In this document: positions 56,272 to 64,000 of the stretch, one piece after another
How the letters are laid out: each line of letters opens with the position of its first letter
How positions within the stretch are numbered: the stretch's first letter is position 1
Assembly (NCBI GenBank): GCA_012729765.1
Contig: JAAYCM010000109.1
Span: 1 to 64,000, forward strand
Direction of reading: 5' to 3'
Origin: Chloroflexota bacterium
GTDB taxonomy: Bacteria > Chloroflexota > Anaerolineae > Aggregatilineales > Aggregatilineaceae
DNA: 64,000 nt
Position numbers and translations under genes: made by a program
The notes under the pieces: model-generated
What the model was told of the DNA's origin: nothing
The model's input: only the letters and a program-made list of their open reading frames with translations
Database searches by the model: none

Positions 56272-57318
56272 TTATTCGGCGGCTTCGGTAGCCGGGACCT
56301 CGCCGCCCATCTCTGGTTCGAATTCCGGCGCAAAACTGCCGTCCCAGTAATCCGATGGCGCGCCGGGGTTCGCCAGCCCGGCATACTCGGCCAGGATATC
56401 GAGCGTGGCCTGCCAGTCTTCCCCGGCATTGATCCCCGGCGGCCAGCCTTCCGTCGCCTCGGAGTGCAGGAACTCGGTCGCCAACTGCCACTGGTGCAGC
56501 AGCACGTCTTCGGCGGGCGCTTCGAGCACCTGCTCAGACATCACGGCGGCGGCCTCTTCGGGATTGGCGGCGGCCTCTTCCCACGAGCGGATCGTCGCGC
56601 GCAGGAAAGCCGCGACCAGTTCGGGTTTGTTCGTAATCGTGTCGGTGTGCGTCAGCAGGCCGCTGCTGAGGAAGTCTACACCGAAGTCAGGATAGCGCAG
56701 CATACAGACTTCCTGCCCGCTCAGCTTCTCGATGGTCGGGGCCTGATCGTGCGCGAAGCCGATCAGCGTATCGGCGCGGCCTTCGATCAGCGCGGCGATC
56801 TTGCCTGCCGGGTCCACATTGACCAGCTCGACATCGTCAACCGTGAGGCCGTTGGCCGTCAGGAAGGCGGGCAGCGTCTGGTAAACGGCGTCGCCGGGCG
56901 TGACGGCGATGGACCTGCCCCGCAAATCCTGCGGCGTTTCGATGCCTTCATCGCAGAAGAACTGGACCGCCGAAGGGTTGCGCTGGAGCAGCACGCCGAT
57001 GCTGCGCACCGGGATTCCCTCGCCGATGCCGCGAATCACCGCCGGGGTGTCGGCGTAACCGAAATCGCCCTGGCCGCTGCCCACCGCCTGGATCGTCCGG
57101 CCTGAGCCGCCGCCCGGCTGGACGATCAGGTTGATGCCTTCTTCGGCATAGTAGCCCTGTTCCAGCCCGTAGTAGAACGGCACATGCTCGCCATAGGGCA
57201 GCCAGTTGAGGATCAGGATCGCCAGTTCGAGGTCGTCCTGGGCGGTGGCCGGGATCGCCCCCAGCATCAGGACGAGGATCAGCACGACGGTTAGCGGAAA
57301 GAAACGGTTGTGTCTCAT
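56272..57318 (-). CDS. NMT1/THI5-like ABC substrate-binding protein
   Basis: The 348-residue protein has a signal peptide (FFPLTVVLILVLMLGAIPAT, cleavage near TAQ). It shows the SsuA/NMT1 pattern: LNWLPYGEHVPFYYGLEQGY, YYAEEGINL, GQGDFGYADTPAV and PQDLRGRSIAVTPGDA. The C-terminus is acidic. Such proteins bind pyrimidine precursors, sulfonates or nitrate analogues. No permease or ATPase is near, so it is an orphan. It leads the minus-strand run before the Gfo/Idh gene. Confidence 0.85.
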   Translation of the reverse strand: MRHNRFFPLTVVLILVLMLGAIPATAQDDLELAILILNWLPYGEHVPFYYGLEQGYYAEEGINLIVQPGGGSGRTIQAVGSGQGDFGYADTPAVIRGIGEGIPVRSIGVLLQRNPSAVQFFCDEGIETPQDLRGRSIAVTPGDAVYQTLPAFLTANGLTVDDVELVNVDPAGKIAALIEGRADTLIGFAHDQAPTIEKLSGQEVCMLRYPDFGVDFLSSGLLTHTDTITNKPELVAAFLRATIRSWEEAAANPEEAAAVMSEQVLEAPAEDVLLHQWQLATEFLHSEATEGWPPGINAGEDWQATLDILAEYAGLANPGAPSDYWDGSFAPEFEPEMGGEVPATEAAE

Positions 57319-57460
57319 TGTAATCACCCGGCACAGGCCCGTTTTTGGCGCGGGCGAGCATGCCGAGACCACTCCTTTCACAGCTTGAAGTTACCGGAAT
57401 AACGGCTACACTGGATGCCACGCGGTGAACTTGCCAGCATATCCTGCGTTCTGCTTGCTT

Positions 57461-59523: not shown

Positions 59524-60561
59524 CTAGACCGCCGGCTCAGCCGTCGTGGTGGGGCGCTCGACCCCGGATGGCTGCGGCTGGCGCAGGTGGCACGCGCAGA
59601 GATGCAGGTTGTCCGCGCTGCCCAGATCGAGCAGGGGCGGAATCTCTTGTGAACACAGGTCAATCGCCTCGCGGCAGCGCGTGTGGAAGCGGCAGCCGGG
59701 CGGCGGGTTGAGCGGGCTGGGTGGATCGCCTTGCAGGATGATGCGCTCGCGCCGGACCTTCGGGTTGGCAATCGGGATTGCGGACATGAGCGCCTGGGTG
59801 TAGGGATGCTGCGCGTTGCGGAACAGCTCCTCGCGGCTGGCGACTTCCACGATCTTACCCAGGTACATCACCGCGACCCGGTCGCACAGGTGCTCGACCA
59901 CGCTCATATCGTGCGCGATGAACAGCAGCGTCAGGTCCAGCTCTTTTTGCAGGTCCTTGAGCAGATTGAGCACCTGCGACTGGATCGAGACGTCGAGCGC
60001 CGACACCGGCTCGTCACACACGATGAACGAGGGCCGCAGCACCAGCGCGCGCGCGATCCCGATGCGCTGGCGCTGTCCGCCTGAAAATTCGTGCGGAAAA
60101 CGGCGCATATGCTCTTCCGTCAGGCCGACCATTTGCAGGGCTTCCAGCACGCGCTGGTGACGCTCCTGCGCATCTTTGATGCCGTGCACGCGCAGCCCTT
60201 CGCCCACGATATCCCCGATCTTCGAGCGCGGGTCCAGCGACGAGTAGGGGTCCTGGAACACGATCTGCATCTTGCGCCGGAAGGGTTTCATCTCCGACTG
60301 GCTGAGCGCGGCTAGGTTCTGGCCGTCGAAGTAGATCGCACCATCGGTCGGCTCGATCAGGCGCAGCAGGGCGCGGCCTACGGTCGTCTTGCCGCAGCCG
60401 GATTCGCCCACCAGTCCCAGAATCTCGCCGTGCTTGATCTCCAGATCGACGCCATCGACGGCTTTCACCACGCCCACCGTGCGCTTGAGCAGTCCGCCCT
60501 TGATGTCGAAGTAGACTTTGAGATTGCGAATATCGACCAGAGTGTCGTTGCTATGCTTCAT
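59524..60561 (-). CDS. oppF: Oligopeptide ABC importer ATPase (OppF/DppF type)
   Basis: The 345-residue ATPase has Walker [13 protein letters not shown], signature [15 protein letters not shown], Walker [15 protein letters not shown]-type motif, and the C-terminal OppF extension with the Cys cluster [13 protein letters not shown] 60561 overlaps the end of oppD by 11 bases, with a G-rich site upstream; a start at 60684 would overlap oppD too far. It completes the operon at its 3' end. Confidence 0.92.
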
Positions 60562-61579
60562 CGCCCCCGCCTTCATACAGCCAGCAGCGCGCGAAATGGT
60601 TGGGCTTGACTTCGAACATCGGCGGCTCTTCCACCATACACTTTTCCAGGCCGAACTCGATCCGTGCCCGGCAACGCGGCGCAAACCGGCAGCCCGGCGG
60701 CATATCGATCAGGTTCGGGACGGTGCCGGGGATCACGTCCAGCCGCTCCTTGACTTCGCCCATCACCGGGATCGACGCGATCAGGCCCTGGGTATAGGGG
60801 TGCAGCGGCTCCGCGAACAGGACCTCGGTGGATGCCTCTTCGACGGTTGTGCCGGCGTACATCACCGTGACGTTGTCCGTCATCTCGGCCACCACGCCCA
60901 TATCATGCGTGATCAGCAGCACAGTCATATTGTGATCGTCGCGCAGGCTGCGGATCAGGTCGAGCACCTGGGCCTGGATCGTGACGTCCAGCGCCGTCGT
61001 CGGCTCGTCCGCGATCAGCAGATCGGGCGCACAGGCCATGCCCATCGCGATCATCACGCGCTGCGCCATCCCGCCCGACATCTCGTGCGGATAGTTGTCC
61101 ATGCGCCGCTCCGGATCGGGGATGCCGACCTCGCGCAGCTGCGACACGGCTTTCTTCTGCTCCTGCTCGCGCTTCAGCTCTTCGTGAATATGGAGCACCT
61201 CACGGAGCTGGTTGCCGACCTTGAAGACCGGGTTGAGCGACGAGCGCGGTTCCTGGAAGATGACCGAGATCTGCTTGCCGCGCAGCCGGGACATCTCGCG
61301 CCGCGATTTCTTGACCAGGTCCTCGCCCTTGAACAATATCTCGCCGGAGACGATCTTGCCCGGCTTATCGACCAATTGCAGGATCGACATGGCGGTCATG
61401 CTTTTGCCGCAGCCAGACTCGCCCACCACGCCGCGAATCTCGCCGCAGTTCACGCGGAAGCTCACGCCGTCGATGGCCTTGACGGTGCCGCGCCGGGTGA
61501 AGAAGTAGGTGCGCAGATCGCGCACTTCGAGCAGGGGCTGCTCGCTCAGGGGTGAATTGCCGTTACGTTTATCTACCAT
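60551..61579 (-). CDS. oppD: Oligopeptide ABC importer ATPase (OppD/DppD type)
   Basis: The 342-residue ATPase shows [13 protein letters not shown] as Walker [16 protein letters not shown] as signature, [12 protein letters not shown] as Walker B and the C-terminal [11 protein letters not shown] segment. In known Opp/Dpp ATPases these cysteines bind an iron-sulfur cluster. It lies between oppC (21 bp) and oppF (overlap) in the operon. Confidence 0.93.
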
Positions 61580-61600: not shown

Positions 61601-63532
61601 CTAACGATCCAGGCGCGGGTCGAGCGCGTCGCGCAGCCCGTCGCCCAGCAGGTTGAACGCCAGCACCGTGATCATAATCGCGATGCCCGGATAGAACACG
61701 AGATGCGGCGCGGTGAAAATTTGATTACGCTCGGCTCCCAGCATCGCGCCCCATTCCGGCGTGGGAGGCTGGGCGCCCAGCCCCAGGAACGACAGCGCGG
61801 CGGCATCCAGAATCGCCGTGCCGATGCCGAGTGTGGCCTGCACGATCAGTGGAGCCATCGCGTTGGGCAGGATGCGCCGGAACAGAATCCGCACCGAGCT
61901 AACGCCCAGGGCGCGATCCGCGGTGACGAAGTCCTCTTCCTTGACGGCCAGCACGCCCGACCGTGCCACCCGTGCATAAGCGGGAATGAACACAATCGAG
62001 ATGGCGAGCAGCGCGTTGACCAGCCCTGGACCGAGCACCGTCACCACCGCGATCGCCAGGATCAGCGGCGGGAAGGCGAGCATCACATCCATGATGCGCA
62101 TGATGATGTTATCGACCCAGCCGCCGAGAAAGCCGGCTACCGCGCCGGAGATGACGCCGAACACGACGGCAAATGACACCGTCGTAATGCCGACCAGCAG
62201 CGAGAGCCGCGTCCCATAGATCACACGGCTGAACTGGTCGCGCACGTTGCCATCTACCCCCATGATATATTCATAGTCCGAAGTCTTGATCACCCGCAGT
62301 GTGTCACCGCTGGCGACCAGCACCGCCCCGCCGCTGCTCTCCCAGGCGGTATTGCTGATCGGATCTTCCAGCTCGACCGCCATCACCTCGCCGCCGTTGG
62401 TGGCGTTCCACACGCGCACCACATGCTCGCCGTGTGTGAGGATGCGTGTGCCCAGCGGGCTGCCGGAAACACGCTCGACCGGCGCGCCGTGATCGAGTTC
62501 CAGCAGCAGATCGCCGTTCACGGCATTCCACACCACCGCCGTGCTGCCACTGGTCGCCAGCACCTTGCGCACGCCGCGCGAGAGATTTTCGAGCCACGCG
62601 CCATGATCCAGCGGACCGCTGTACTCGGCAGCCAATTCCTGCTGGTAGGACGACGCGTTCCAGATATAGAGGCTGCTGCCGCTCGTCGTCAGGATGCGTG
62701 TGCTGGCCGGGTTGAAGCTGGCGCTGGTCAGCGGCGCGTCATGATCGAGCGTGTTGATCAGCGTCCCGCTGAAGGCATTCCAGAGCTGGACCTGGCTGCC
62801 GCTGGCCGTCATGACCAGCGTGCCGTTGGCGTTCCACGCCGCCGCGATACGTGCGCCATCCAGTTCAATCGTACCGACCGCGTTCCACGAGAGCGTGTCC
62901 CAGATCATGACGGTTTCCTGATCGGCGCTGAGGAAGCGCGTACCGTCGGCATTCCACATGACGAGATCGGCTCCGCCGGGATGCTCCAGCGTGCGGTTGA
63001 GCTGGCGCGTGTTCACGTCCCAGACATACAGCTCTGCGCCGCTGGCGGTGAGCACCTTCTGGCTGTTGGGACTCCACGCTGCCGCCTGAACCGGCGCTTC
63101 GTGGTCCATCTCCATCACCCGGCGGGCGTTTTCGGTGTCCCAGATCGTGACGTTGCTGCCGGTGGCGGACAGCATCAGCGAGCTGCTGACGTTGACCGCG
63201 CTGGCCGTGATCGGCCCGCCAACGTCGATATTGGTCACCGTATCGCCGGCCTCAGGGCAGCCGAACAGGTGAATACACGGCGACATGCGCTTTTCGACAC
63301 CCTCTTCGGGCACGTCGAGCAGCACCGCCAGCGGATCGTGCGTGGCGATCAGCGGAGCGAAGATGGCGATCAGCACCAGCGTGCTCAGGATCACCAATCC
63401 CAGGATGGCCGATGGCTTGCGAATCAGGCGTTCCAGCGTCTCGCGCCAGAGGCTCTTGGGGGGACGGCTGATGACGGCAGCGTCGGCGGTCGTCAGTTTT
63501 GGTTCAGGTGGAAGAGAATCTGCACGTTGCAT
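61601..63532 (-). CDS. OppC/DppC-type permease with an inserted WD40-like beta-propeller
   Basis: Typical OppC proteins have about 300 residues; this one has 643. TM1 (about 42-64) and the start of the P1 loop (SPCIHLFG, 84-91) are normal. Then come about 335 residues (92-425) with WD/WN dipeptides at residues 131, 171, 211, 251, 291, 335 and 375, about 40 apart, each preceded by VTASG/LTTSG-type strands. A last partial unit is at 408-420. The sequence returns with MGVDGNVRDQFSRVIYGTRL (424-442), the second half of the normal FGTDxxGRDxFSR motif. TM2-TM6 and the EAA loop (LPNAMAPLIVQATLGIG) follow. The propeller is extracytoplasmic by position. Frame and composition are uniform, so it is one gene. 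Confidence 0.88.
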   Translation of the reverse strand: MQRADSLPPEPKLTTADAAVISRPPKSLWRETLERLIRKPSAILGLVILSTLVLIAIFAPLIATHDPLAVLLDVPEEGVEKRMSPCIHLFGCPEAGDTVTNIDVGGPITASAVNVSSSLMLSATGSNVTIWDTENARRVMEMDHEAPVQAAAWSPNSQKVLTASGAELYVWDVNTRQLNRTLEHPGGADLVMWNADGTRFLSADQETVMIWDTLSWNAVGTIELDGARIAAAWNANGTLVMTASGSQVQLWNAFSGTLINTLDHDAPLTSASFNPASTRILTTSGSSLYIWNASSYQQELAAEYSGPLDHGAWLENLSRGVRKVLATSGSTAVVWNAVNGDLLLELDHGAPVERVSGSPLGTRILTHGEHVVRVWNATNGGEVMAVELEDPISNTAWESSGGAVLVASGDTLRVIKTSDYEYIMGVDGNVRDQFSRVIYGTRLSLLVGITTVSFAVVFGVISGAVAGFLGGWVDNIIMRIMDVMLAFPPLILAIAVVTVLGPGLVNALLAISIVFIPAYARVARSGVLAVKEEDFVTADRALGVSSVRILFRRILPNAMAPLIVQATLGIGTAILDAAALSFLGLGAQPPTPEWGAMLGAERNQIFTAPHLVFYPGIAIMITVLAFNLLGDGLRDALDPRLDR

Positions 63533-63540
63533 GATCTTCG

Positions 63541-64000
63541 CTATTCTAGTCTGATACGCGGATCAAGATAGGCGTAGAGGGTATCGACCACGAGATTGAT
63601 AAACACGAATATCACCGCGATGATCAGAGTGAAACCCTGGACGACCGTATAATCGCGCCCGGTGATCGAGTCATACAGAATACGCCCAACCCCGGACAGG
63701 CCAAAGACCGTTTCGGTCAGCACCGCGCCGCTCAGCAGCGAGCCAAGCGACAGGCCGATAATCGTGACGACCGGCAGCAGCGCGTTGCGGAAGGCGTGCT
63801 TGAGCACAACTTTCGTCTCGCGGACACCCTTCGCGCGCGCCGTGCGGACATAGTTCAGTCCCAGCACTTCGAGCAGGCTGGAGCGCGTCATCCGGGCGAT
63901 GATCGACATCGGGATTGTGCCGAGCGCCATCGCCGGCAGGATCATATGGCGCAGCGCATCGCCCAGCCCGTTCCAGTCCTGCACGAGCAGCGCGTTGAGC
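63541..64000 (-). CDS. oppB: OppB/DppB-type permease, partial (C-terminal part)
   Basis: The gene runs off the window end; about 152 codons are present in the frame GCTCAACGCG... on the minus strand. It shows LPAMALGTIPMSIIARMTRS, the EAA-type motif NYVRTARAKGVRETKVVLKH, and FGLSGVGRILYDSITGRDY then VVDTLYAYLDPRIRLE, all typical of OppB. The stop is 8 bp before the oppC start. No substrate-binding protein gene is seen inside the window. Confidence 0.92.
   Translation of the reverse strand, partial: LNALLVQDWNGLGDALRHMILPAMALGTIPMSIIARMTRSSLLEVLGLNYVRTARAKGVRETKVVLKHAFRNALLPVVTIIGLSLGSLLSGAVLTETVFGLSGVGRILYDSITGRDYTVVQGFTLIIAVIFVFINLVVDTLYAYLDPRIRLE

Follow-up and report, generated by a model that had tools for sequence, protein, structure and literature searches.

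Type I importers normally leave recognition to a separate binding protein (SBP). A permease gene from an uncultured Chloroflexota bacterium raises the question of what a large folded domain might do when it is carried by the translocator itself. The gene lies in a window of 64,000 nucleotides, the whole stretch of DNA analysed here, which sits within contig C93 (235 kb) of a 4.75-Mb genome. A sequence-only reading had described its product as an OppC permease of 643 residues, interrupted between TM1 and TM2 by an extracellular beta-propeller. The permease, the inserted domain, the operon and the relatives of all three are considered below, and the possible roles of the propeller are weighed against each other.

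The permease and its inserted domain

The ORF at 61601-63532 of the reverse strand encodes a permease of the OppC/DppC type with the length and identity previously assigned (Table 1). Matches to OppC_N (residues 27-67, 44.3 bits, cut-off 23.9) and BPD_transp_1 (residues 459-642, 116.4 bits, cut-off 26.4) both exceed the Pfam thresholds. Residues 421-642 align without a gap to residues 78-299 of E. coli DppC (E 9e-72), which bears out the view that the permease core following the insertion is normal. No NCBIfam equivalog model reached its cut-off for this protein, and the full-length DppC equivalog scored 282.2 bits, over residues 418-642 only, against a cut-off of 483 bits. The permease is thus a DppC-like protein and not a certified DppC, and is shown to be a subunit of a DppABCDF-type ABC peptide importer. 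It shares its operon partners with E. coli DppC (DppABCDF; PDB 8z1v/8z1y, PMC12136057), whose TM1-TM2 loop is short, whereas here the loop contains a propeller of 320 residues.

Table 1. Coordinates of the permease gene, its parts and the adjoining transporter genes in the window
Feature	Position	Strand	Basis
Permease gene of oppC/dppC type, 643 aa including the propeller	61601..63532	-	ORF, Pfam
OppC_N, N-terminal segment and TM1 (residues 27-67)	63332..63454	-	Pfam PF12911; AlphaFold2 helix 40-57
Left boundary of insertion: CIHLFGC motif (residues 86-92)	63257..63277	-	also in insert-free relatives
Eight-bladed WD40 beta-propeller insert (residues 98-417)	62282..63241	-	AlphaFold2, Foldseek, Pfam WD40
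Right boundary of insertion: intact motif MGVDGNVRDQFSR (residues 424-436)	62225..62263	-	alignments with E. coli DppC and empty-site relatives
BPD_transp_1 permease core (residues 459-642)	61607..62158	-	Pfam, DppC alignment
oppB/dppB partner without insertion, continuing past the window (357 aa in L039)	63541..64000	-	
oppD-type ATPase with oligo_HPY C-terminal region	60551..61579	-	Pfam
oppF-type ATPase with oligo_HPY C-terminal region	59524..60558	-	Pfam; start MKHSNDT chosen by analyst

The edges of the insertion differ from those first proposed. The propeller had been thought to split the motif FGTDxxGRDxFSR, but FGTDxxGRDxxSR is whole after the propeller, and the upstream HLFGC belongs to a separate motif, PCIHL[LF]GC. 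This upstream motif is conserved in relatives without an insert as well, for example in PCIHLLGCPADQPQHLMGTDGNVRDMFSR. The complete downstream motif, G-x-D-x(3)-R-D-x(2)-S-R, precedes TM2 and aligns to DppC. A close comparison is provided by an empty-site Chloroflexota OppC subfamily (PCIHL[LF]GC-PEDQPQ-HIMGIDGNVRDQFSR), in which the flanking motifs and the core are about 58-69% identical to those of the propeller form. Its members read PCIHLLGC-PEDQPQ-HIMGIDGNVRDQFSR, so that the linker between the two motifs comprises six residues (PEDQPQ), as opposed to 329 in the propeller form. Since both flanking motifs are retained with 329 residues between them, GTD..RD..SR is intact and the insert occupies the linker before it. 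In the E. coli cryo-EM structures (PMC12136057), DppC exposes its TM1-TM2 region to the periplasm, and the propeller is therefore extracytoplasmic, on the side of the membrane that had been proposed.

The Pfam WD40 match between OppC_N and BPD_transp_1 reaches 54.7 bits (cut-off 27, E 1.1e-14), a repeat signal far above chance. Seven repeats and a partial one had been counted; the seven W[DN] endings stand, while the remaining repeat, which ends in IKT, is the eighth of eight units of about 40 residues and completes an eight-bladed propeller. AlphaFold2, run on an alignment of 36 rows (9 with the propeller and 27 without it), predicted a closed eight-bladed propeller of 32 strands at residues 98-417, with pLDDT mostly between 90 and 97. 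The predicted blades are four-stranded with a strand-swapped closure, blade 8 being formed by the N-terminal strand 98-103 together with strands 392-397, 403-408, and 411-416. In Foldseek, the best E-value was obtained with the WD40 domain of bacterial PkwA (PDB 5yzv), and the matches also included TBLR1, Sif2, and Tako8, a designed protein with eight blades (TM 0.82 by target length, rmsd about 3). The architecture, a permease with an eight-bladed propeller in its loop, is close to certain. The two linkers have pLDDT below 50 (residues 70-91 and 420-429) and the overall pTM is 0.57, so that the prediction does not fix the orientation of the propeller on the permease.

The propeller is acidic, lacks Cys in nearly all members, and keeps a constant length of 320-321 residues in eight of them. 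Conservation is highest in the a-b loops of the bottom face (0.77), followed by the d-a (0.62) and b-c (0.56) loops. The a-b turns have a structural role in WD40 repeats. A search for conserved surface residues had been suggested; scoring by loop class, and not by mapping onto coordinates, revealed no clear exposed patch, and conservation was weak and mostly structural. In sequence and fold the propeller resembles PkwA (PDB 5yzv) and the WD40 proteins of the same order, although in these the domain occurs in kinase-, TIR-, or NTPase-linked or stand-alone proteins and not in permeases. Such proteins account for the rejected candidates L056, L057, and five of the loci L138-L144.

The operon and its circularly permuted binding protein

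The gene order SBP-oppB-oppC(propeller)-oppD-oppF is found in eight of the ten propeller loci, with the SBP gene adjoining oppB, and the expected operon components (SBP, OppB, and two oligo_HPY ATPases) are present. The two exceptions are G013, where the SBP gene is on a different contig from oppBCDF, and G017, where it was not seen on the short contig. For the permease described here, the cognate SBP was anticipated upstream of oppB and is encoded directly there, just outside the window (L039 8741-10684; L183, G000:C93:64700-67500). No propeller-specific insertion was found in OppB, nor in the SBP when compared with those of empty-site operons. No recurring gene was seen outside the transporter operon in nine neighbourhoods inspected by eye. 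Elsewhere in the window, positions 56275-57381 of the reverse strand encode an NMT1/THI5-like binding protein with a signal peptide, seemingly without a lipobox.

The SBP of the importer is a natural circular permutant of the DppA/SBP_bac_5 family, in which the part corresponding to DppA from about residue 126 to the C-terminus comes first and the N-terminus comes last. In the L050 orthologue (L050:6868-8520, forward strand), residues 52-353 match DppA 126-429 (1dpe numbering). A weak match to the C-terminus of DppA follows at about residues 382-423, and the N-terminal part of DppA (28-146, 8z1z numbering) is matched by residues 429-540. The split of the Pfam domain agrees with this order. AlphaFold2 modelled the permuted protein with a pLDDT of 89.7 and a pTM of 0.87, and a sequential Foldseek alignment to DppA-type structures covered about 386 columns at about 2 A. 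The SBPs of the empty-site subfamily are of the same permuted type and align in the same order, which implies that the permutation predates the propeller; it is common to the Chloroflexota empty-site operons and to an Allorhizobium operon (L123). A circularly permuted SBP of this family was not described among the literature matches listed, and the type is possibly new. In one empty-site operon (L122:5914-8331), the permuted SBP is fused behind an N-terminal family 3 SBP domain identified by Pfam, and L113:5984-8464 and L084:462-2927 resemble this fusion in length and N-terminal sequence.

The signal peptide of the SBP has no lipobox, as classed by regular expression and not by SignalP. When about 85,000 species genomes were scanned, a lipobox was absent from all eight SBPs of the propeller operons recovered and present in all 55 scorable SBPs of Chloroflexota empty-site operons; five truncated or poorly started rows were unscorable, and the Allorhizobium SBP has none. 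Within the order, 58 of 60 sampled SBP_bac_5 loci (L180-L239) were called non-lipobox, a few of them from poorly called starts, and in the window's genome a lipobox is likewise missing from every other SBP_bac_5 protein that was scored. Four genomes of family f2 (G018, G025, G031, G036) combine empty-site operons, non-lipobox SBPs, and no propeller. The association between anchor and propeller is thus a lineage effect, as non-lipobox SBPs also occur without a propeller in the same order. A lineage-wide loss of lipoprotein maturation was rejected, the LspA and Lgt families being present in nearly all genomes. Omp85, the one outer-membrane protein family searched, was not found in the window's genome. 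With the non-lipobox SBP, this fits a single-membrane (monoderm) envelope, from which an unanchored SBP could diffuse away.

Distribution and evolution of the propeller form

Full-length orthologues of 642-646 residues were found in seven other genomes, with 69-72% whole-protein identity and the same junctions, and two length variants of 770 and 678 residues also occur. Orthologues at the same site, which the earlier reading had named as support, are thus present in nine other genomes of the order, and the shared junctions show that the insertion is not an assembly artefact, the possibility it had raised of an artificial junction. The propeller form occurs in 10 of 154 genomes of the order. 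Nine of these belong to the family, which has 18 genomes in all, and one (L054/G062) to another family. In the other half of the family it is absent, and the best OppC matches are only about 50% identical. The window's genome contains a single match.

The scan of about 85,000 genomes used two peptide patterns, kept the best 80 loci, and was not exhaustive; it recovered at least eight propeller loci, the other readable loci being empty sites. When 400 genomes were drawn evenly from the phylum and a small number of candidates was scored in each, the propeller form appeared only in the window's own genome. Ten regions with long open frames were also searched for inserted permeases. Five contained OppC, none of them with an insert, and the remaining five, all from the window's own genome, gave no match with the motif filter.

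In a permease tree built with the propeller left out, the ten propeller rows form one clade with 100/100 support, placed among empty-site relatives, which implies one insertion and no loss within the clade. A single insertion is thereby shown, which took place in the ancestor of one Chloroflexota family within the order, or close to that ancestor. L054, from the other family, pairs with L055 on a long branch, and either horizontal transfer or long-branch attraction is a possible explanation for its placement. The 770-residue orthologue (L055:9812-12121, from G011) has about 127 extra, strongly acidic low-complexity residues inside the propeller.

The domain has been retained under purifying selection. 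In the closest pair, G013/G017 (dS 0.41), on which the estimate is based because dS is larger and partly saturated in more distant pairs, dN/dS was 0.065 for the propeller and 0.006 for the core. Purifying selection on the propeller is well supported by these values. At the same time, the propeller is the fastest-diverging part of the operon. The main members are 54-58% identical to L050 in the propeller, 74-85% in the SBP, 80-85% in OppB, and 88-92% in the core.

Possible roles of the propeller

A complete propeller that was acquired once and kept under selection suggests that this importer, unlike ordinary ones for peptides, has an additional means of docking or capture. The leading guess, to which a probability of about 0.4 is given, is that the propeller may serve as a docking or retention platform for the cognate SBP, in the manner of MalF-P2. 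This is based on its position, the operon context, and precedent. MalF-P2 of MalFGK2, also a type I importer, is likewise a folded extracytoplasmic domain within a loop of one of the two permeases, and the region contacts MalE directly (PMC3150292), although its fold is unrelated and the loop is a different one. AztD, also eight-bladed and extracytoplasmic, serves an ABC importer through its SBP by handing zinc directly to AztC (PMC6689063); unlike the propeller, it is a separate soluble protein and not fused to a permease. Held beside the entrance of the pore by its two linkers, which would be short and flexible, the propeller would contact the non-lipidated, circularly permuted DppA as a permanent extracytoplasmic platform. 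Such a platform might keep the SBP near the translocator, or guide it, in an envelope without sign of an outer membrane. In E. coli, DppA caps DppB/DppC, and it binds the translocator too weakly for co-purification of the wild-type complex (PMC12136057); a tether could therefore matter.

Several observations count against SBP docking. If the propeller met a conserved partner, rapid divergence would not be expected of it; this divergence and the lack of matching changes in the SBP favour an external or wall ligand. OppB has no propeller-specific insertion either. In addition, the four f2 genomes manage with non-lipidated SBPs and no propeller, the window's genome has a single propeller permease although its other scored SBP_bac_5 proteins also lack a lipobox, the SBP gene of G013 lies apart from oppBCDF, and the predicted orientation is not fixed. 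A possible but less likely role is the binding of a wall polymer, of a component of the surface layer, or of a ligand from the environment, for instance proteins or long peptides, which would hold the importer in place or concentrate substrate at the pore entrance. Fast divergence is in keeping with a partner that differs from species to species, WD40 propellers are known to bind peptides (5naf and 2ce8 are among the structural matches), and the acidic, mostly Cys-free composition is also compatible with this role. The lack of a conserved exposed patch, given that the best-conserved loops are structural turns, and of any additional gene recurring beside the operon in the nine neighbourhoods inspected speak against it. 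A permease-borne propeller receptor at the pore entrance that holds or captures a specific partner, be it an external ligand or the permuted SBP, and hence an importer class of this kind, has about even odds.

The other explanations are improbable to different degrees. The propeller might gate transport allosterically, or act as a lid over the pore entrance that alters substrate size selection independently of SBP affinity. It directly precedes the conserved motif leading into TM2, but the linkers are probably flexible and a compensating change in the permease core was not seen, which makes this role unlikely. About as unlikely is a tolerated passenger without an important role, a WD40 domain lodged in a permissive loop. 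Its adjacent N and C termini would make insertion easy, the low-complexity stretch in the G011 protein and the divergent copy L054 are evidently tolerated, and half of the family does without the propeller form; purifying selection, the constant length, and the persistence of the insert throughout the clade weigh on the other side. It is very improbable that the propeller was acquired to replace a lost lipid anchor of the SBP. It was rejected as a specific explanation, because the phylum-level correlation, although complete, is confounded by lineage, propeller-free operons of the order having non-lipobox SBPs as well, and because LspA and Lgt are present.

What is new here is the domain architecture; the kind of transporter is itself known. 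No description of a propeller-bearing permease was found in the open-access literature searched. The permease presents a large folded domain in a peptide importer, found in several genera and accompanied by clean empty-site relatives, and shows that a loop of a membrane transporter can accept a WD40 propeller while the transporter core stays undisturbed. The conserved propeller and the empty-site relatives offer a natural comparison for roles in SBP docking, retention, or substrate selection. If the propeller does act as a receptor at the pore entrance, the translocator of these bacteria would itself contain an extracytoplasmic recognition module, a second one beside the SBP.
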